Assembly: GCF_036699995.1 (NCBI RefSeq)
Contig: NZ_CP144906.1
Coordinates: forward strand, 142,501 to 206,500
Direction: 5' to 3'
DNA: 64,000 nucleotides
From: Clostridium beijerinckii
Lineage (GTDB): Bacteria > Bacillota > Clostridia > Clostridiales > Clostridiaceae
Shown: positions 13,401-22,105 of the stretch, piece by piece
Layout: every line of letters starts with the position of its first letter
Numbering within the stretch: position 1 is the stretch's first letter
Notes under the pieces: generated by a model
What the model was told of the DNA's origin: nothing
Seen by the model: the letters and a program-made list of their open reading frames with translations, nothing else
Databases searched by the model: none
Translations under genes and position numbers: made by a program

Positions 13401-14306
13401 ATGATAAAAGTTATAGGCGTAAGATTCAAGAAAGCGGGAAAGATTTACTACTTTAGTCCACTAGAATTAGATATAAAAAAGGGCAATTATGTAATAGTAG
13501 AGACAGCTAGAGGTATAGAATTTGGCGAATGCGTTATAGGAATTAAGGAGATAAAAGAGGAAGATATAGTATCACCTTTAAAGAATGTTATTAGAATTGC
13601 TGATGAGGATGATATTAGAAAACATAAAGAAAATAAAGAAAAAGAAAAAGAAGCCTTAGATATATGCTTAGCGAAAATTCAAGAACATAAATTAAATATG
13701 AAATTAATAGATGTTGAATATACATTTGATAATCATAAGGTTATATTCTACTTTACAGCAGATGGTAGAGTAGATTTCAGAGAGTTAGTTAAGGATTTAG
13801 CTACTATATTTAAAACTAGAATAGAATTAAGACAAATAGGAGTAAGAGATGAGGCTAAAATGGTTGGAGGACTTGGACCATGTGGTAGACCTATGTGCTG
13901 CTCTACATTCTTAGGAGACTTTGCATCTGTATCAATAAAAATGGCAAAGGAACAGAATCTTTCTTTGAATCCAACCAAGATATCTGGAATATGTGGAAGA
14001 TTGATGTGCTGTTTGAACTATGAACAAACTACATATGAAGGTATAAGAAAGAGATTGCCTAAGGTCGGCTCTATTGTTAAGACAGATGCTGGGAATGGAG
14101 AAGTTGTTGGTAATTCAATAGTTAAAGAGATGGTAAAGGTTAAGGTTAGAAGAGGAGACGAGGAAGTTGTTGAGGAATTCAAAATAACTGATGTAGAGCT
14201 CGTTTCAGGAAAATATGAAGATACAATTGATGAAAATAATATAAAATTGATTGTTGAGTCAGAAGAAGATAAAACATTAATAAAAAATCTTATTAATGAA
14301 AAATAG
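13401..14306 (+). CDS. ricT: PSP1-domain protein RicT (YaaT), sporulation/biofilm regulator
   Basis: A 301-residue PSP1-family protein. In Bacillus its orthologue YaaT/RicT joins RicA and RicF in an iron-sulfur complex that affects Spo0A phosphorylation and RNase Y function. The cysteine blocks GPCGRPMCCSTFLG and GICGRLMCCLNYE are conserved here, about 45 residues apart. The C-terminal part is a charged KOW-like tail. It follows holB by 3 nt, as in most Firmicutes. Whether RicA and RicF exist in this genome cannot be seen from the window. Confidence 0.93.
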   Translation: MIKVIGVRFKKAGKIYYFSPLELDIKKGNYVIVETARGIEFGECVIGIKEIKEEDIVSPLKNVIRIADEDDIRKHKENKEKEKEALDICLAKIQEHKLNMKLIDVEYTFDNHKVIFYFTADGRVDFRELVKDLATIFKTRIELRQIGVRDEAKMVGGLGPCGRPMCCSTFLGDFASVSIKMAKEQNLSLNPTKISGICGRLMCCLNYEQTTYEGIRKRLPKVGSIVKTDAGNGEVVGNSIVKEMVKVKVRRGDEEVVEEFKITDVELVSGKYEDTIDENNIKLIVESEEDKTLIKNLINEK

Positions 14307-14317
14307 GAGGAATTTCT

Positions 14318-14521
14318 ATGAAATCTGTTATTAAGATTTGTAATATGGAGTCTAATGACGATGCCAAGATAATTCAAGATACAGTTGTTAAGAATTCGGG
14401 GGTAATAGCTACTGAAATTTCGCTTGCAAAAAGGGAGATAACAGTAATATATAATGATATCTTTTTAAAACTCGAAAGGATTATAAATTCCATAGAGGAT
14501 TTAGGATATGTTGTTTTGTAA
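14318..14521 (+). CDS. Small HMA-like domain protein lacking the CxxC metal site
   Basis: A 67-residue protein with the alternating pattern of a heavy-metal-associated (HMA) fold: strand KSVIKIC, helix DAKIIQDTVVK, strands IATEISLAKREITVIY, helix LERIINSIEDLGY, strand VVL. Metal-carrying HMA proteins have MxCxxC in the first loop; here it reads ICNMESND, with a single Cys. AGGAGG lies 6 nt before the ATG and it follows ricT by 11 nt, so it is translated with that operon. Function is unknown; fold assignment is by eye. Confidence 0.65.
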   Translation: MKSVIKICNMESNDDAKIIQDTVVKNSGVIATEISLAKREITVIYNDIFLKLERIINSIEDLGYVVL

Positions 14522-14643
14522 TCGTAAATAATACAACAATATTAAAAAATAAGAAGTCTAGAATACAAAACACTTTTAAAACATACGAATACGTGTTAAA
14601 ATGTAAGAGGTTAATTACCACAATTTATTAGGAGGTGTTCTAG

Positions 14644-14814
14644 ATGGCATTTGTTATTAATGATTCATGTGTTAGCTGTGGAGCATGCGCTGGAGAATGT
14701 CCAGTTAGTGCTATAACTCAAGGAGATACTCAATTCGTTATTGATGCAGATACTTGTATCGATTGCGGAAACTGTGCTAATGTTTGCCCAGTGGGAGCTC
14801 CAAACCAAGAGTAA
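14644..14814 (+). CDS. Ferredoxin, 2[4Fe-4S] clostridial type
   Basis: A 56-residue small electron carrier. Two classic cluster motifs are complete: C9-C12-C15-C19 (CVSCGACAGECP) and C38-C41-C44-C48 (CIDCGNCANVCP). Length and the duplicated halves match clostridial 2[4Fe-4S] ferredoxins, which supply electrons to hydrogenase and other redox enzymes. GGAGGTG lies 7 nt before the ATG. A strong terminator follows at once, so it is probably its own transcript; AT-rich DNA upstream (14522-14630) may carry the promoter. Confidence 0.97.
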   Translation: MAFVINDSCVSCGACAGECPVSAITQGDTQFVIDADTCIDCGNCANVCPVGAPNQE

Positions 14815-14822
14815 TAAAAGAG

Positions 14823-14850
14823 AGATCGTCTTTAGGCGGTCTTTTTTTTT
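14823..14850 (+). terminator. Intrinsic terminator after ferredoxin
   Basis: 8-bp stem AGATCGTC/GGCGGTCT with G-U pairs and loop TTTA, followed by a T-run to 14850. It lies 8 nt after the ferredoxin stop. Confidence 0.9.
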
Positions 14851-14881
14851 ATTTAAAAAATAGTTGAAATAGTTATTTTCA

Positions 14882-15532
14882 CTATTTATATGGAGGTGTT
14901 AACAAGATACATTCAGACTTAAGGTTAGAATTTATATCCAAGTCAGAAGTATCTAATATATTAGAATTTATTTTTTTTATGCTCTTCATAGATATTATAA
15001 AATTCTTAGGGTCGTCTAAGTATAAAGATGTTGTATTAGTTTTATAATGCATAGGAACTATGTATTTTGGGGAAATAAGGTTACAAAGTTTCGCAGACTC
15101 AAAACCGTCCAGAGTGAAATGTCCACCAATAGGGATAAGTAAAATATCAATATTTTTAAGCTTTTCTAAAATCAATGAACAAGGTATATGGCCTAAATGT
15201 CCTAAATGGCATATAGAAAGTTTATCATCCTTAAATATATAAATAATATTTGAGCCTCTTTTTAGTCCATTGCACTTATCATGAAAGGAGTCAAGTCCTT
15301 CTATGTTAAGGAAGCTTAAGTTAAAGTTTCCGCTCTCATTAATAATCTTGGTTGTATTATTTATATCATTAATATATGAACTATCAAAATGGTTATGACT
15401 AATGGTAATTAAATCAGATTTAGGGAAATTATTATCATAACCTAAATTGTTGCTAAACGGATCAATTAGAATTCTTTTACCAATGGATGTTTTCATAAGG
15501 AAACAAGAATGTCCATACCAAATAATTTGCAT
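14882..15532 (-). CDS. Metallo-beta-lactamase-fold hydrolase (UlaG/YtkL-like)
   Basis: A 216-residue protein of the Lactamase_B_2 group. The metal-binding motif is SHNHFDSS (His46, His48, Asp50); the usual HxHxDH has Ser in place of the last His. Further blocks are CHLGHLGH, IPIGGHFTLDG and PMHYKT, typical of UlaG-like enzymes that keep most ligands. It begins MQIIWYGHSCFLMK, the common N-terminus of this group. It is read leftward between the ferredoxin and ctsR, preceded by GGAGG. The substrate is unknown. Confidence 0.85.
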   Translation of the reverse strand: MQIIWYGHSCFLMKTSIGKRILIDPFSNNLGYDNNFPKSDLITISHNHFDSSYINDINNTTKIINESGNFNLSFLNIEGLDSFHDKCNGLKRGSNIIYIFKDDKLSICHLGHLGHIPCSLILEKLKNIDILLIPIGGHFTLDGFESAKLCNLISPKYIVPMHYKTNTTSLYLDDPKNFIISMKSIKKINSNILDTSDLDINSNLKSECILLTPPYK

Positions 15533-15611
15533 ATAAAACCTCCATAAATTGAAATATATTAGATATTATTAACATACAGTATTATAAATAATCATAAATT
15601 TATATTGATAC

Positions 15612-15664
15612 TTCAAAAAGTAAAAGAAGTATAGTATAATATTATAAAGTCAAAGTAAGTCAAA
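15612..15664 (+). promoter_or_regulatory. ctsR promoter with CtsR operator
   Basis: The -10 TATAAT is at 15635-15640, with TTCAAA 17 nt upstream as a weak -35. Directly downstream, AGTCAAA-GTA-AGTCAAA (15648-15664) is the tandem heptad bound by CtsR. The operator covers the expected transcription start, so binding would block initiation. The operon would be autorepressed and released on heat stress. Confidence 0.85.
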
Positions 15665-15701
15665 AACAAATAATTAAATAAAGGTTTAAGCAGGTGATGT
15701 T

Positions 15702-16157
15702 ATGGCAAGACTTTCAGATATAATAGAAGAGTTTATAAAACAAATGTTTAATGAGAATAGAGATAATGTGATTTTTATACAAAGAAATGAGTTAGCAGAT
15801 CAGTTTAGATGCGCGCCGTCCCAAATAAACTATGTATTAACAACTCGATTTACCTATGAAAGAGGATATTTAATTGAGAGCAAGAGAGGCGGCGGAGGTC
15901 ATATAGCGATCAAGCAGTTGGATGAGGATAACTCCAATAGAAGGGAAGAGCTAATTAACCAAAGCATAGGAGAAACAATAACATATCATAATGCAAACGC
16001 ATTGCTTAATCACTTATTAGAATCTGGAGTTATTGAAGAAAGAGAATGTGAAATAATGAAGATAGCAATAAATGATAGAAGTTTAACTTCAGTAGATAAT
16101 AAAAATAAAGTAAGAGCTGATATTTTAAAAGCTATGATTATGATAATTTTATCTTAA
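15702..16157 (+). CDS. ctsR: CtsR, repressor of class III heat-shock genes
   Basis: A 151-residue DNA-binding repressor. The N-terminal winged helix-turn-helix reads MARLSDIIEEFIKQMF through NYVLTTRFTYERGY. The wing ESKRGGGGHIAI holds the glycine-rich loop that acts as the thermosensor in Bacillus CtsR. The C-terminal dimerisation/four-helix part follows. It heads the ctsR-mcsA-mcsB-clpC operon and has a CtsR heptad box at its promoter. Spacing to mcsA is 14 nt. Confidence 0.95.
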   Translation: MARLSDIIEEFIKQMFNENRDNVIFIQRNELADQFRCAPSQINYVLTTRFTYERGYLIESKRGGGGHIAIKQLDEDNSNRREELINQSIGETITYHNANALLNHLLESGVIEERECEIMKIAINDRSLTSVDNKNKVRADILKAMIMIILS

Positions 16158-16171
16158 AGGTGGGGATATAT

Positions 16172-16750
16172 ATGTTATGTGAAAAATGTAAAAAAAATGA
16201 AGCAAAGATAAATTTAATTACAGTGATGAATGGTCAGAAACAGGAAATTTGGTTGTGTGAAAATTGTGCAAAAGATATAGCTAATATTCCGTTCTTCAGT
16301 CCAATAATGCAAAATATAAATGTTCCATTTCAAGGCATACTTACAGAAATATTATCTAATGTAGATAATGGTAAATCAAATATAGATAGCAATAAAGTAA
16401 AAGAAATTATTTGTCCAAATTGTGGGTTAACTTATCAGGAATTTAAGAAATCAGGAAGATTGGGATGTGCTGATTGTTATAAAGAATTTAATATTGTACT
16501 TGAGCCAAGGATAAAGAGCTTACAAGTTGGAACTAAACATATTGGTAAGATTCCTAAGGTTAAGGGAAAGGAATTGGTTCAAAGAAAAAATCTTAAGGAT
16601 TTAAAAGAAGAGATGCAAAAATTGATAGTAGCCGAGGAATATGAGAGAGCAGCAATAGTAAGAGATGAAATTAAAAAACTAGAATTATATATATTAGAAA
16701 GTAACACTAAGGAGATTATAAATAGAAAGGAGGGCAATTGTGATGAATAG
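16172..16750 (+). CDS. mcsA: McsA, zinc-finger and UVR-motif activator of McsB
   Basis: A 192-residue protein that in Bacillus activates the arginine kinase McsB and links it to ClpC. Paired cysteines: CEKC (3-6), CENC (29-32), CPNC and CADC in the middle. The C-terminal UVR motif is LVVAEEYE-like (LIVAEEYERAAIVRDEIKKL). ATG 16172 is used since AAGGTGGGG precedes it; the frame opens 12 nt earlier. It overlaps mcsB by 8 nt, suggesting translational coupling. All four zinc-type pairs appear intact, in contrast to the altered McsB next door. Confidence 0.93.
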   Translation: MLCEKCKKNEAKINLITVMNGQKQEIWLCENCAKDIANIPFFSPIMQNINVPFQGILTEILSNVDNGKSNIDSNKVKEIICPNCGLTYQEFKKSGRLGCADCYKEFNIVLEPRIKSLQVGTKHIGKIPKVKGKELVQRKNLKDLKEEMQKLIVAEEYERAAIVRDEIKKLELYILESNTKEIINRKEGNCDE

Positions 16751-17756
16751 CTGGGAAGATGATAATGAAAGACTTGGAGCAGTATTAAGTAGCAAAGTGT
16801 TGTTAGCTAGAAACTTTAGTAATTTACCTTTTCCTAATAAACTAAACTATATTAAGGGTAGAGAAAATGGTAAAGAAGTATATAACGTTCTTAGGAACGA
16901 ATTAGATAATGAAGAAATTACGTTATATGAGATTTGGAATACAAAAGAGGAATTTAGTAAACAATATTTAGAAAGGGATCTAATTAGCAAAGAACTTTTG
17001 AAAAATTCTGATAAGGGCTCATTTATATTGAATAAAGAAGAAGATCTTAGCATTATGATAAATGAAAAAGATCATATAAATCTTCAATGTGTAAGTGACG
17101 GATTGAAATTAGAAGAAATTTTTGAGAGAGCAACAGTTATTGATGATAAGATAGAAGAAAATTTTGACTATGCCTTTGATGAAACATTAGGTTATTTAAC
17201 AGCATCACCAGAGAATATCGGAACAGGAATGAAGGCATCAGTAGTATTACATTTGCCAGCTCTTAGTATGAGTGAAGAAATTAGTAATATATCCAAAAAA
17301 CTTGGTAAGCTAGGGATTGCTATAAAAGGAGTCCATTTAGATGGTACAAAAGTTTTTGGAAATTTATACAGAATATTTAATAAAGTGTCATTAGGTTTGA
17401 CAGAGGAGAATATTATAAATAAATTAAAAGAAGCAGTTTGGAGCATAATAATAGAGGAAAATAAATTCCGAGAAATATTACTTAGTAAATGTAGACATGA
17501 ATTAGAGGATAAGATATATAGAGCATATGGAATACTGAAATATGCAATGATTTTGGATTTTAAAGAGTCTATTGAACTATTATCAAATGTTAGATTAGGA
17601 GCGGAATTATCAATTATAAATATTGATAAGGGTAAGTTAGATAAACTATTTATTCTAATTACTAATTCATCCCTTCAAAATTATTTAAAAAAATCACTAG
17701 ATGATAAGGAAATTAAGTATGAAAGAGCTAAATTAGTGAAAGAAATGTTAACCTAA
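16743..17756 (+). CDS. mcsB: McsB-like protein arginine kinase homologue, active site degenerate
   Basis: A 337-residue guanido-phosphotransferase-fold protein in the position of mcsB. Known McsB kinases phosphorylate arginines to mark proteins for ClpCP. Compared with remembered Bacillus McsB, the nucleotide motif SSRIRLARN is SSKVLLARN (Lys18, Leu20), NEEDHIRIQ is NEKDHINLQ (Lys109, Asn113), CPTNVGTGLR is SPENIGTGMK (Ser155, Lys164), and VRGIYGEG is IKGVHLDG (Lys195, 198-200). The C-terminal RDxxRA phosphoarginine site is also not kept. The fold blocks remain, so it is probably a structural or regulatory homologue with weak or no kinase activity. ATG 16743 follows AAAGGAGGG; GTG 16740 is an alternative. 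Confidence 0.88.
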   Translation: MNSWEDDNERLGAVLSSKVLLARNFSNLPFPNKLNYIKGRENGKEVYNVLRNELDNEEITLYEIWNTKEEFSKQYLERDLISKELLKNSDKGSFILNKEEDLSIMINEKDHINLQCVSDGLKLEEIFERATVIDDKIEENFDYAFDETLGYLTASPENIGTGMKASVVLHLPALSMSEEISNISKKLGKLGIAIKGVHLDGTKVFGNLYRIFNKVSLGLTEENIINKLKEAVWSIIIEENKFREILLSKCRHELEDKIYRAYGILKYAMILDFKESIELLSNVRLGAELSIINIDKGKLDKLFILITNSSLQNYLKKSLDDKEIKYERAKLVKEMLT

Positions 17757-17781
17757 GGAGAAGATAGGAGGTTTAAAGTAT

Positions 17782-20256
17782 ATGGAATATAATAAATTAA
17801 CAGAAAGGGCACAAGCAGTAATTTTAGAAGCTGAAAATGAATCAGAAAAATTTAAACATGGGTATGTTGGAACTGAGCATATATTACTTGGCATATTAAA
17901 AGAAGATGGATATTCTGCTAAGTTATTAAAAAAATATGGGGTTAATAGTGAGAATATTAGAAATATGATACAAAGATACTTGGGTTATGGGGATATCAAG
18001 AAAACAGACGATAATATTTTACTGACCCCTCGTACCAAAAGGTTAATAGATGAAAGTTTCGCAGCAGCAAAAAGATTAAATCATAAATATGTTAGCCCTG
18101 AACATATTTTATTAGCCTTACTTAATCAAGAAGAAGGAATGGCATACACTATATTAAAAAGCTTGAATCTTAACTTCACCATTATAAGTGAAGAATTACT
18201 TGTATTCTTATCTGGTACTTATGAAGATAAAGCTAGCGATAAAAATATAATTGATAATAAGAAAGCTAATACTCCAATGCTTGATAAGTATGGAAGGGAT
18301 TTAACAGTACTATCTAAGGAACAAGGACTAGATCCTGTAATTGGAAGGGATAATGAAACTCAAAGGTTATTAGAAATTCTTTGTAGGAGAATTAAAAATA
18401 ACCCGTGTCTGATTGGGGAACCAGGTGTTGGTAAAACTGCTGTAGTTGAAGGACTAGCACAGAGAATAGTGGAGGGAAATATTCCAGAGATACTTAGAAA
18501 TAAAAGAGTTGTTTCTTTAGATTTAACATCTATGATTGCAGGAGCTAAGTATAGAGGTGAATTTGAGGAAAGACTTAAGAAAACTATGGATGAAATAATT
18601 AAAGATAAAGATATAATTATTTTTATAGATGAGATTCATACTATTATAGGAGCAGGAGGAGCAGAAGGTGCTATCGATGCATCTAATATATTAAAGCCTG
18701 CTTTAGCAAGAGGAGAGATTCAATGTATAGGAGCCACAACTATAGATGAATATAGAAAGTATATTGAAAAGGATTCTGCATTAGAAAGAAGATTTCAACC
18801 TGTAACAGTGGGAGAGCCTTCAAAGGAAGAAACGCTAAAAATTCTTAAAGGATTAAGAGATAAATATGAAGCTCATCACAGAGTTGAAATAACAGATGAA
18901 GCTTTAGAAGCGGCCGTTAATTTGGCAGATAGGTATATAACAGATAGATTTATGCCGGACAAAGCCATTGATTTGATTGATGAAGGAGCTGCTAAAGTGA
19001 GAATCCAAAGCTTAACAGCCCCTCCGGATTTAAAAGATCTAGAAGAAAAAATTGAAAATATAGGTAAAGAAAAGGAAGAAGCTATACGAGTTCAAGACTT
19101 TGAGAGAGCTGCTAATTTAAGGGATAAAGAGAGAATTTTAAAAGAGCAGTTAGGTAATATGAAAGATAGTTGGGATACTCAGAATTCTATAAAGACACTA
19201 GTTGTAGATGCAGAAAAGATAGCGAGTGTAGTATCATCTTGGACTAAGATTCCAATTCAAAAATTAACTGAATCGGAAAGTGAAAGGTTATTAAAATTAG
19301 AGGAAATATTACACAAGAGAGTCGTTGGGCAAAATGAGGCGGTTAAATCTATAGCAAGGGCTGTGAGACGGGCAAGAGTTGGAATAAAGGATCCTAATAG
19401 ACCAATAGGAAGTTTTATATTCTTAGGACCAACTGGAGTTGGAAAGACTGAGCTTTCTAAAGCACTTGCAGAAGCTATGTTTGGTGATGAAAATAATATT
19501 ATAAGAATTGATATGTCAGAATACATGGAAAGTCATTCGGTATCTAGATTAATAGGATCGCCTCCAGGATATGTAGGACATGAAGAAGGTGGTCAACTTA
19601 CAGAAGCTGTTAGAAGAAAACCTTATTCAATAGTTCTTTTAGATGAGATAGAAAAGGCAAATCCAGAGGTATTCAATATATTGCTTCAAATTATGGAAGA
19701 TGGAAGACTTACTGATGGTAAAGGAAAAATAGTTAATTTTAAGAATACAATAATTATAATGACTTCAAATGTTGGTGCTCATCAAATTAAAAAGCAGAAA
19801 AGCATAGGATTTAGTAGCGTTACTTCTAAAAACGAAAATGAAACTGAATATGAAAAGATGAAGGAAAATATATTAGGGGAACTAAAGCAAAAATTTAGGC
19901 CAGAATTTTTAAATAGAATAGATGATACAATAGTATTCCACAAATTGAGTGATGAAGATTTAAATCAAATTATAGATTTAATGCTTGCATCAATAAGAAA
20001 AAGGCTTGAGGACAGAGATATATACTTAAACTTTGAAGATAATAGTAAAAAGTTCCTACTAAACAAAGGAATTGACCTTGATTATGGTGCAAGGCCACTT
20101 AGAAGATTGATAATAAAAGAGGTAGAAGATAAATTAAGTGAGGAAATATTACAAGGAAATATAAGAATCGGAGATAGGGTAAAGGTAAGTGAGTTAGAAA
20201 ACAAACTTATTTTCAAAAGATTGGCTGAAAGCAATTTGGAGCTCAATAAGAATTAA
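17782..20256 (+). CDS. clpC: ClpC, AAA+ unfoldase of the ClpCP protease
   Basis: An 824-residue Hsp100 ATPase that unfolds substrates and feeds them to ClpP. Domains: two Clp N repeats (about 1-145), AAA+ 1 with Walker A GEPGVGKT near 211, a middle domain with a UVR-like segment ([16 protein letters not shown]), AAA+ 2 with Walker A GPTGVGKT near 549, and a C-terminal small domain. Length is usual for ClpC. It is the last gene of the ctsR operon, 25 nt after mcsB, with GGAGG before ATG 17782. Confidence 0.96.
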
Positions 20257-20267
20257 TTTATGTTAAT

Positions 20268-20316
20268 GGGCTATTTCAACGCTATAAATTATTTATACAT
20301 TGAAATAGTCCGTTTA
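20268..20316 (+). terminator. Putative terminator after clpC
   Basis: GGGCTATTTCAA (20268-20279) pairs with TTGAAATAGTCC (20300-20311), with a 20-nt AT-rich loop. Only a short T-run follows (GTTT), so strength is uncertain. Confidence 0.55.
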
Positions 20317-20381
20317 GCTTAAAGATTAATATTTGGGTATTGAGTAGTTTAAAATGTATTAAATAGTAGGAGAAAATAGAT

Positions 20382-21317
20382 ATGAGTAAAGAAAAAAAGG
20401 AATTGGATTTAATTATAATTGGGGGTGGACCAGCAGGTCTTACAGCAGCAATGTATGCAGGAAGGGCAAAGTTGAATACTTTGTTGTTAGAAAATGAACT
20501 TGTGGGAGGTCAAGTTAGAAATAGTTATACTATAGAGAATTATCCAGGATTTAAAAGTATAGGTGGAGGAGATTTAGCTGATATATTTCAAGAGCAAGCT
20601 AGAGATCTTGGAGCAAATATTGATGAATTTGATTCAATTGAAAAAATATATATATCAGATGATGAAAAGATTATAGAAACTGAATCATATATATACCAAC
20701 CTAAAGCTGTAATAATTGCTACAGGAGCGGCACCAAGAAAACTGCCTATTCCTCAAGAAGAACAATTTTCAGGAAGAGGAATTCATTACTGTGCTATTTG
20801 TGATGGAGCACTTTATCAAGGCAAAAAAGTTGCTGTTGTAGGCGGTGGAAATTCTGCACTAGAAGAGTCTATATTTTTAACTAGATTTGCTGAAAAAGTG
20901 TACCTAATCAGAAGATATGATTATTTTAAAGGGGAACAGTCATTAATTGATGAAGTTTTCAATAACCCTAAAATAGAGGTTCTATTAAATAAGGATTTAA
21001 TTCAGGCTAATGGTAAGGAATTTTTGGAATCAGTTATCATAAAAGACACTAAGACTCAAGAAACTAGTAGCTTAGATGTTAATGCAGTTTTTGGGTATAT
21101 AGGAACAGAGCCTAGAACAAAAGAAGTAAAGGATTATATAAAATTGAATGAGCAAGGATATATAATTACTGATGAAGATTTACAGACAAATATTCAAGGA
21201 GTATATGCAGCAGGGGATGTAAGACAAAAGAAGTATAGGCAAATAACAACTGCTGTATCAGATGGCACGATTGCGCTTTTAAATGCGGAAAAGTATATAT
21301 TACGAAAAAGAAAATAG
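20382..21317 (+). CDS. trxB: Thioredoxin reductase family flavoprotein
   Basis: A 311-residue FAD disulfide reductase. The FAD-binding GGGPAGLTAAMYAGRA is near residue 14, the redox motif CAICDG near 137-142, the second Rossmann motif VVGGGNSALEE near 155, and the FAD-binding AAGDVRQKKYRQITTA near the C-terminus. It should reduce a thioredoxin or glutaredoxin-like partner. The usual NADPH-phosphate motif HRRxxxR reads IRRYDYFK, keeping the two Arg. A glutaredoxin-like gene converges on it across a shared terminator. Confidence 0.92.
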   Translation: MSKEKKELDLIIIGGGPAGLTAAMYAGRAKLNTLLLENELVGGQVRNSYTIENYPGFKSIGGGDLADIFQEQARDLGANIDEFDSIEKIYISDDEKIIETESYIYQPKAVIIATGAAPRKLPIPQEEQFSGRGIHYCAICDGALYQGKKVAVVGGGNSALEESIFLTRFAEKVYLIRRYDYFKGEQSLIDEVFNNPKIEVLLNKDLIQANGKEFLESVIIKDTKTQETSSLDVNAVFGYIGTEPRTKEVKDYIKLNEQGYIITDEDLQTNIQGVYAAGDVRQKKYRQITTAVSDGTIALLNAEKYILRKRK

Positions 21318-21362
21318 CATTAAGCATGGAAATATAAGTCAGATATTAATTGATATATGCCA

Positions 21363-21400
21363 AAATAATTAAGAGGCGCATATACGCCTCTTAATTATTT
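21363..21400. terminator. Bidirectional terminator between trxB and the glutaredoxin-like gene
   Basis: A perfect 16-bp stem (21363-21378 with 21385-21400) with GC-rich core GAGGCG/CGCCTC, flanked by A/T tracts. It overlaps the stop codon of the leftward gene and ends both converging transcripts. Confidence 0.92.
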
Positions 21401-21622
21401 ACCTAAAGCCTTTAAAATAGCAGGCTTATCAAAGCCTATAATAATATTATCATTAATATCTAATACTGGTACACCCATTTGATTAGACTTTTTTATCATT
21501 TCTTCTCTAGCTTCCATATCATCTTGAACATTTAATTCTTGAAATTCAATATTTTCTGATTTAAGAAAACTTTTTGCTTTAACGCACCAAGGACAAGTAT
21601 TGGTAGTATATACTTTTACCAT
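21395..21622 (-). CDS. Glutaredoxin-like (NrdH/Grx family) protein
   Basis: A 75-residue thioredoxin-fold protein with redox motif TCPWC near residues 9-13 and the cis-proline segment MGVPVLDIND. Length and motif fit the small clostridial glutaredoxin-like proteins. It is convergent with the thioredoxin reductase gene. Known from Clostridium pasteurianum: a similar small protein (Cp9) works with a TrxR-like flavoprotein (Cp34). Inferred: these two may be redox partners. GGAGG precedes the ATG. Confidence 0.88.
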   Translation of the reverse strand: MVKVYTTNTCPWCVKAKSFLKSENIEFQELNVQDDMEAREEMIKKSNQMGVPVLDINDNIIIGFDKPAILKALGK

Positions 21623-22105
21623 AAATGAATACGCCTCCTTAATAATTATTATTATATTGTAATTAATATTATAATATAGATTTTATAATCATTCAATATA
21701 ACTAGAAAATAATGAGTTTATTATAAATTAAATTATAATTTGGTTATATATTGTTGTCTCATTATTAGAATAATCATTATAGAGTAATTTCGTTAATACA
21801 TAACTAGTGAATTATATTTTATATTTATTTTCTAGTGTTGATATTAATATTATAATTTCTTTTTATTATATATTTGTTCTTTACTAATCTATTTTATAAT
21901 AGCTTTTGCAATAATTTATTAAATATTCTAAGAACAAAAAATAAAATAGCCATAAAGTATTATATATAATGATTGGATGGAGGTTAAAAGCTAGCTATAT
22001 TTAATTCAAAATATATGAGTAAGAAAGTAATATGCTATAATATAATTAAGATTTTTATTAAAAAAGTAAGATGTAATAAAGATCTAGAAACGAAGGGAGA
22101 GGTTT
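21623..22105. other. AT-rich intergenic region before radA
   Basis: About 480 bp with very low GC and no supported gene, RNA gene or clear hairpin. It must contain the promoters of the leftward glutaredoxin-like gene and of radA. Several TATAAT-like words occur, but none has a convincing -35 partner. Confidence 0.5.

Follow-up and report, generated by a model that had tools for sequence, protein, structure and literature searches.

Our analysis of the mcsB gene in a 64,000-nucleotide stretch of Clostridium beijerinckii DNA (the window; positions 142501-206500 of contig C1 of a 5.55 Mb single-contig genome) indicates that the McsB protein encoded there almost certainly lacks arginine kinase catalysis, as judged from single-residue mutants of the Bacillus subtilis protein. 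With a probability that we put at roughly 0.6, this McsB pseudokinase acts together with its partner McsA on ClpC, as an adaptor or regulator that needs no kinase activity, arginine phosphorylation having been given up. A first-pass annotation of the same DNA had suggested that McsB is a pseudokinase, and that claim is now backed by the B. subtilis mutants, by the loss of catalytic residues in 41 of the 41 McsBs found in the window genus, and by the missing YwlE phosphatase, the eraser of arginine phosphorylation.

The window McsB and its active site

The protein belongs to the McsB family by domain, full-length similarity and operon. PF00217 (ATP:guanido phosphotransferase domain) matches it at 6e-59, and phmmer aligns it over nearly its full length with 6fh1, the Geobacillus stearothermophilus McsB (E 4.6e-65). 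An AlphaFold2 model built from 12 sequences of the genus has a mean predicted local distance difference test score (pLDDT) of 89 and template modelling (TM) scores of 0.87-0.88 against the 6fh1 chains, so the McsB fold is intact, as had been said of it. The NCBIfam model NF002194 gives it 422.4 bits and passes its cut-off of 385, and this equivalog model still labels the protein 'protein arginine kinase'; two more diverged McsBs of the genus score under the same cut-off, and with NF053707 the window McsB reaches 304.7 bits, below the cut-off of 500. A ribosome-binding site precedes the mcsB ATG at 16743. The gene is the only mcsB match in the single-contig genome; a second, intact copy would have counted against the first-pass annotation.

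We aligned the window McsB with solved McsB structures (6fh1 and 8wtb) and with the McsBs of G. stearothermophilus and B. subtilis. All eight key catalytic positions, namely the five phosphate-binding arginines of arginine kinase, the catalytic Glu121 and Glu212, and the catalytic Cys167, are replaced in it. The gene and the replacements read from the alignment are as follows:

16743..17756, plus strand: mcsB, a protein-arginine kinase homologue of 337 amino acids in which no working active site can be recognised (pseudokinase)
16794..16802, plus strand: K18 for R28/29 and L20 for R30/31, the N-terminal arginines
16977..16979, plus strand: Asp79 for the near-invariant His91
17067..17081, plus strand: K109 for catalytic Glu121 to N113 for Arg125
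17205..17213, plus strand: S155 for catalytic Cys167 to E157 for Thr169
17232..17234, plus strand: K164 for Arg176
17325..17342, plus strand: K195 for Arg207 to D200 for catalytic Glu212, the altered VRGxYGEG loop

The substitutions K18, L20, K109, N113, S155 and K164 and the motif variants IKGVHLDG (with K195 and D200) and RIFNK all lie at the residues where the first-pass annotation had placed them; the changes of Thr169 to E157 and of His91 to Asp79 are additional to it. His91, which we take to be the equivalent of H185 in arginine kinase, is present in 99% of the intact McsB set versus 10% of the genus McsBs. H185 of arginine kinase is reported to contact the nucleotide ring (PMC12467219). 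The window protein keeps H123, N170 and R34 (as R23), the last being a further arginine that is essential in B. subtilis.

The C-terminal RDxxRA site had been described as missing. Half of it is indeed lost, but R341 and A342 are still there, and this is weaker evidence than had been stated; we rejected the loss of RDxxRA as a sign of a dead kinase because just 59 of 104 intact-type clostridial McsBs have R337, and just 59 have D338. Arg194, reported as the octamer clamp (PMC8370763), is found in only 5 of the same 104; taken with the figures for Arg337 and Asp338, this suggests that the octamer of B. subtilis McsB gated by phosphoarginine (pArg) is probably not general in clostridia.

In the report of Lilge 2020 (PMC7235348), R29K, R31K, R34K, R125K, R176K, R207K and R337K singly gave no phosphoprotein signal in B. 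subtilis McsB; R31 and R337 are placed outside the active site there, R31 being counted essential, and C167S is a kinase-inactive mutant. The window McsB combines R29K, R176K, R207K and C167S, each of which is reported to abolish the activity of the B. subtilis protein (PMC7235348), and it has different residues at R31 and R125. An active but rewired kinase, in which lysines would replace the arginines and Asp would replace Glu212 and some other acceptor would be phosphorylated, is very improbable. It is true that three of the five arginines are Lys, that R34 survives and the change to D200 is a conservative one, and that among 120 close relatives of the window McsB (69-99% identity) Lys occupies the R28 site (K18) in 117, the R176 site (K164) in 116 and the R207 site in 108; but single Arg-to-Lys changes at these sites are the ones reported to have left the B. 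subtilis enzyme without signal (PMC7235348), Glu121 is now Lys, Cys167 is Ser and His91 is Asp, and the Arg125 and Glu212 sites drift in the same relatives (N113 and D200 being majorities of 57% and 77%, respectively).

Spread of the changed McsB and co-loss of YwlE

A McsB match is present in 41 of the 68 genomes of the genus and absent from 27, at least five of which are <90% complete and 19 of which were read at the locus. None of the 41 proteins has fewer than two of the eight key positions changed, and 40 have at least five changed; the McsB of G065 is the least changed, with two, and that of G060 spans two contigs, its first two key positions missing. The sets of key residues differ widely across the genus. 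The alignment of many clostridial McsBs that the first-pass annotation had proposed thus gives 41 of 41 catalytically changed proteins in the genus and 104 with the intact set in the family. Of 80 named loci in the genome collection, the intact set is present at 69; the other 11 come from Clostridium, Clostridium sp. and metagenome-assembled genomes, plus Inconstantimicrobium porci, and include C. chromiireducens, C. puniceum, C. uliginosum, C. paraputrificum and C. vincentii. The change had been ascribed to 'this lineage', which holds for all the McsBs of the genus but is too narrow, since changed proteins are also found in G109 and in genus g29, and mcsB has been lost outright in four more lineages. 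The G109 protein (I. porci; loci L093/L191) carries C167N, T169R and R207K with the remaining key residues kept, apparently an early and independent inactivation; G136, of the same genus, is intact. Our positive controls were the intact relatives and the Bacillus-labelled locus L104 (NF053707 544.5, cut-off 500). Bacillus subtilis has both McsB and CtsR; a set of control genomes that included it gave a McsB match in 0 of 14 and a CtsR match only in Lactococcus, and seems unusable as a control for this stretch.

No YwlE-type arginine phosphatase, for which the first-pass annotation had suggested a check, was found in the window genome by searches with the low-molecular-weight phosphatase domain (LMWPc) or with a YwlE profile. 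The sole LMWPc match is ArsC-like and lies between genes that by eye are ArsA-like and ACR3-like. The profile was made from 17 YwlE-type proteins with a CTGNTCRS-type loop; over 194 genomes of the family its scores are split by a gap (125 versus 80 bits), and the best match in the window genome (E 5.2e-9) is far under that gap. For 26 of 112 genomes the loop itself was read, the remaining 86 being classed by score, and McsB was read in all 149 genomes of this sample that have one. YwlE is present in 104 of 104 genomes with the intact McsB set, or 106 of 106 if G080, whose sole change is T169S, and G102, whose N-terminus is cut off, are counted as intact-type, as they are below. It is present in 4 of 43 genomes with a changed McsB and in 2 of 45 with none, together 6 of 88. 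The Fisher test of this association (p 4e-48) takes no account of relatedness, and we do not treat its p as a probability. From outside the genus we chose eight genomes for their lack of a YwlE-class match (g18, five; g29, two; g43, one), and their McsB is damaged in 8 of 8 cases; the YwlE-bearing genomes read alongside them have an intact McsB in 12 of 12.

The exceptions are the YwlE-type proteins of six genomes. Five (G015, G016, G023, G055 and G029; loci L164-L168), two of them from genomes without a McsB match, are related and have a CTANTCRSP loop with Ala for Gly, and this phosphatase may have another substrate. In the sixth, from C. paraputrificum (G019, L169:1055-1486), APYGG stands where 16 of 17 aligned proteins have the Asp of the DP motif, so that to judge from this motif the eraser may itself be dead beside a dead writer.

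The association was also tested on trees of ClpC. A first test of 182 rows, which omitted 15 genomes from outside the genus that have no McsB and scored as lacking YwlE six genus genomes in which it was unmeasured (G030, G037, G056, G058, G061 and G064), gave 4 changes and 2 to 4 pairs and was not significant. The second tree, built with FastTree, whose branch support is less trustworthy, covers 196 genomes, and for 190 of these both traits are scored; it omits G105, G111 and G205, whose ClpC is short or missing, and G035, which has no convincing one. On it the genomes without intact McsB form seven separate groups: the window genus with g18 (68 genomes, none intact), three genomes of g15, G134, 16 of g24, two of g29, G109 and G078. 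In six supported independent pairs an average of 5.9 differ in the same way in McsB and YwlE and none in the opposite way (median p 0.031, range 0.031-0.0625). The reverse test, with pairs that differ in YwlE, gives eight pairs, of which six go the same way, two show no difference and none is opposite. The 17 sampled g24 genomes (e.g., L307-L313 and L322-L326) have kept ClpC and have no match for CtsR, McsB or YwlE, and for McsA at most weak matches in the UVR range.

The absence of YwlE from none of the 106 genomes with intact-type McsB and its presence in 6 of the 88 others fit a loss of catalysis first and of the eraser afterwards. We infer an order of events in which McsB catalysis would have been lost first, YwlE would have gone next because nothing was left for it to erase, and mcsA and mcsB would finally have been deleted together in some branches. 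Hyperactive McsB is reported to harm growth of B. subtilis, and deletion of ywlE to harm its spore germination (PMC5506225, PMC11841064).

Partners of the changed McsB and selection on it

The genes around mcsB have the order ctsR-mcsA-mcsB-clpC on the plus strand, which is the operon arrangement of McsB systems:

14882-15532, minus strand: gene directly ahead of the mcs operon that by eye seems to encode a hydrolase of the metallo-beta-lactamase fold
15648..15664, plus strand: candidate CtsR-type operator AGTCAAAGTAAGTCAAA, 1 mismatch to consensus, 37 bases upstream of ctsR
15702..16157, plus strand: ctsR, class III heat-shock repressor (PF05848 9e-35, PF17727 1.4e-18)
16160..16750, plus strand: mcsA, activator/partner with four CxxC zinc pairs, overlapping the start of mcsB
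17782..20256, plus strand: clpC, AAA+ partner of ClpP, with the Glu32, Glu106 and Arg254 positions kept

McsA accompanies the changed McsB in 43 of 43 genomes of the family sample, and where McsB is absent it is found in 1 of 45, as a partial match only (weak UVR-range matches, E about 1e-4, were excluded from these counts). The window McsA scores 157.8 bits with NF053706, under the cut-off of 210, and its zinc pairs are intact, as had been claimed; the eight zinc cysteines are likewise present in the 40 McsAs read from the genus, apart from a single deviation at the second of them. All 19 of the McsB-less loci of the genus that were fetched have ctsR followed by clpC, mcsA and mcsB both being gone, and a ClpC N-domain query matches 194 of 194 family genomes (G035 only at 8e-5). 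From this pattern of retention, McsA and ClpC are the constant partners of the changed McsB. The ClpC N-domain is reported to bind the McsA/McsB complex in other species (PMC12583610).

CtsR is a less constant companion. One could suppose that pseudo-McsB and McsA are a redox switch that frees DNA of CtsR under thiol stress and leaves ClpC untouched; kinase-off B. subtilis McsB, once freed from oxidised McsA, is reported to take CtsR off DNA without need of its kinase (PMC5506225), and ctsR, the CtsR-type operator and the McsA zinc cysteines are all kept in the window. Such a CtsR-only role is nevertheless quite unlikely, since changed McsB and McsA persist in four genomes that have no CtsR match (G084, G122, G095 and G130), which favours the ClpC side, and CtsR is retained in 19 of 21 sampled genus genomes that have no McsB. 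The regulon itself says little here. Judged by the operator consensus, 15648..15664 is the only window site with <3 mismatches, and exact sites are found close to the genes of a small heat-shock protein and of a CBS-domain protein; genome-wide, however, the pattern with <=1 mismatch has 5 sites versus 4 for the reversed control, and in the window there are fewer sites with <=3 mismatches than expected by chance (9 versus 13.8 in shuffles). The first of the exact sites (L318:1501-1517) is 57 bases 5' of the small heat-shock protein gene, which by eye is Hsp18-like. An Rfam scan of 14000-22000 gave no match.

The constraint on the changed McsB is relaxed but clearly present. The ratio of nonsynonymous to synonymous substitution rates (dN/dS) is 0.086-0.342 for changed McsBs (median 0.20, 15 pairs) and 0.016-0.175 for intact ones (median 0.074, 21 pairs); the pairs, picked by hand so as to be moderately diverged, are not independent of one another and take in some codons upstream of the start. 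Within the window clade it is 0.086-0.144 in six of seven pairs and 0.209 in the seventh, and no stop codon is found inside the listed mcsB frames of the 41 genus genomes. Among 104 intact relatives 58 McsB columns are >=98% invariant. In the 41 genus McsBs the 11 active-site columns, which were chosen from motif knowledge after part of the data had been seen, are retained at 0.28 and the remaining 47 at 0.78 (Mann-Whitney p 2e-5), and 23 of the 58 columns are still >=95% retained. Gly162 and Tyr163 are also retained in >=95% of the genus McsBs, and the Staphylococcus aureus McsB loop that by our mapping of positions holds them is reported to meet the McsA zinc finger (PMC12467219).

These data bear on the view that McsB is a functionless relic on its way out, held between mcsA and clpC by coupling to clpC translation and lost branch by branch. 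The 27 of 68 genomes without a match, the joint disappearance of mcsA and mcsB at all 19 fetched loci, the dN/dS above that of intact McsB and the very different residue sets across the genus speak for it. The open frames, the low window-clade dN/dS, the 23 retained columns, the near-fixation of S155 and E157 in the 120 close relatives and the constant company of McsA speak against it, and we regard a relic as unlikely overall; it fits the window clade poorly but may apply to the more diverged members of the genus.

In those 120 relatives S155 is found in 119, E157 in 120 and a basic residue at the K109 site in 120. The former catalytic columns taken together have about the average conservation for the clade, S155, E157 and H111 being well above the middle. 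These residues allow a bolder and rather doubtful proposal, that the genus dismantled arginine phosphorylation in a fixed order and that in the C. beijerinckii branch the dead McsB was then rebuilt, its pocket acquiring other residues that became fixed (a basic one in place of Glu121, Glu for Thr169 and Ser for Cys167). There an internal salt bridge might keep McsB in the shape that ClpC recognises, which would make it a constitutive adaptor.

The kinase-independent adaptor or regulator remains our preferred reading. McsA and McsB would act on ClpC without the kinase, either presenting substrates or switching ClpC, and removal of CtsR from DNA would be a likely second task; the role of a 'non-phosphorylating ClpC adaptor or CtsR partner' offered by the first-pass annotation fits what we find. 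There is a precedent in B. subtilis, where the half-life of MgsR is reported as 6.4 min in wild type, 12.3 min with C167S and 17.7 min with the mcsB deletion, a result taken by its authors as a kinase-independent adaptor function (PMC7235348). Several observations weigh against this reading. The ClpC adaptor role of B. subtilis McsB in CtsR degradation is reported to be kinase-dependent (PMC5506225), so a pure adaptor departs from that model. The higher dN/dS of changed than of intact McsB (p 1.5e-5, from pairs that are not independent) and the 27 of 68 genus genomes without a McsB match indicate that its function is dispensable. Six genomes retain a YwlE-type protein without an intact McsB. 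Finally, the pArg reader pockets of ClpC show no decay, which is weak evidence either way: Glu32, Glu106 and Arg254 are invariant at 84 loci with an intact McsB, 49 with a changed one and 19 with none, and the Glu32 and Glu106 pockets are reported to maintain the resting state of ClpC as well (PMC12583610), so that little about pArg can be read from their retention.

Comparison with known systems

The kinase and adaptor roles of McsB are hard to separate in Bacillus, and a lineage that has McsA and McsB minus the kinase chemistry and YwlE separates them; the kinase-independent role thereby becomes directly testable in a solvent-producing Clostridium. Clostridial stress papers treat McsB as a kinase, for example in C. 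difficile (PMC6387971) and in C. cellulovorans under butanol (PMC8336468). In the genomes studied here the label 'protein arginine kinase' is probably wrong, as is the assumption that phosphoarginine marks their proteins for ClpCP. The literature searched, which left most subscription papers outside, contained no natural, lineage-wide pseudo-McsB with co-loss of YwlE, and one may already be in print. It likewise yielded neither an arginine phosphorylation assay nor a phosphoproteome for C. beijerinckii.

Pseudokinases are known from elsewhere, and McsB without kinase activity has served as a tool in the laboratory. The window McsB resembles the McsB kinases of B. subtilis, G. stearothermophilus (6fh1) and S. 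aureus (8gqd) in its fold, its ctsR-mcsA-mcsB-clpC operon and the similarity of its dimerisation domain, and differs from the active enzymes in the replacement of eight key positions and in a genome where no YwlE was found. With the B. subtilis C167S mutant, reported as kinase-dead with partial adaptor function (PMC7235348), it shares the same Cys-to-Ser change; in the window McsB, however, this change is natural, is present in 119 of 120 members of the clade and is accompanied by seven further catalytic changes and by the lack of an eraser. The chlamydial pseudokinase Pkn5, as reported (PMC5177608), has likewise kept a kinase-type fold and lost its catalytic residues, but it is of the Ser/Thr-kinase type, whereas the window McsB has the phosphagen (guanidino) kinase fold.
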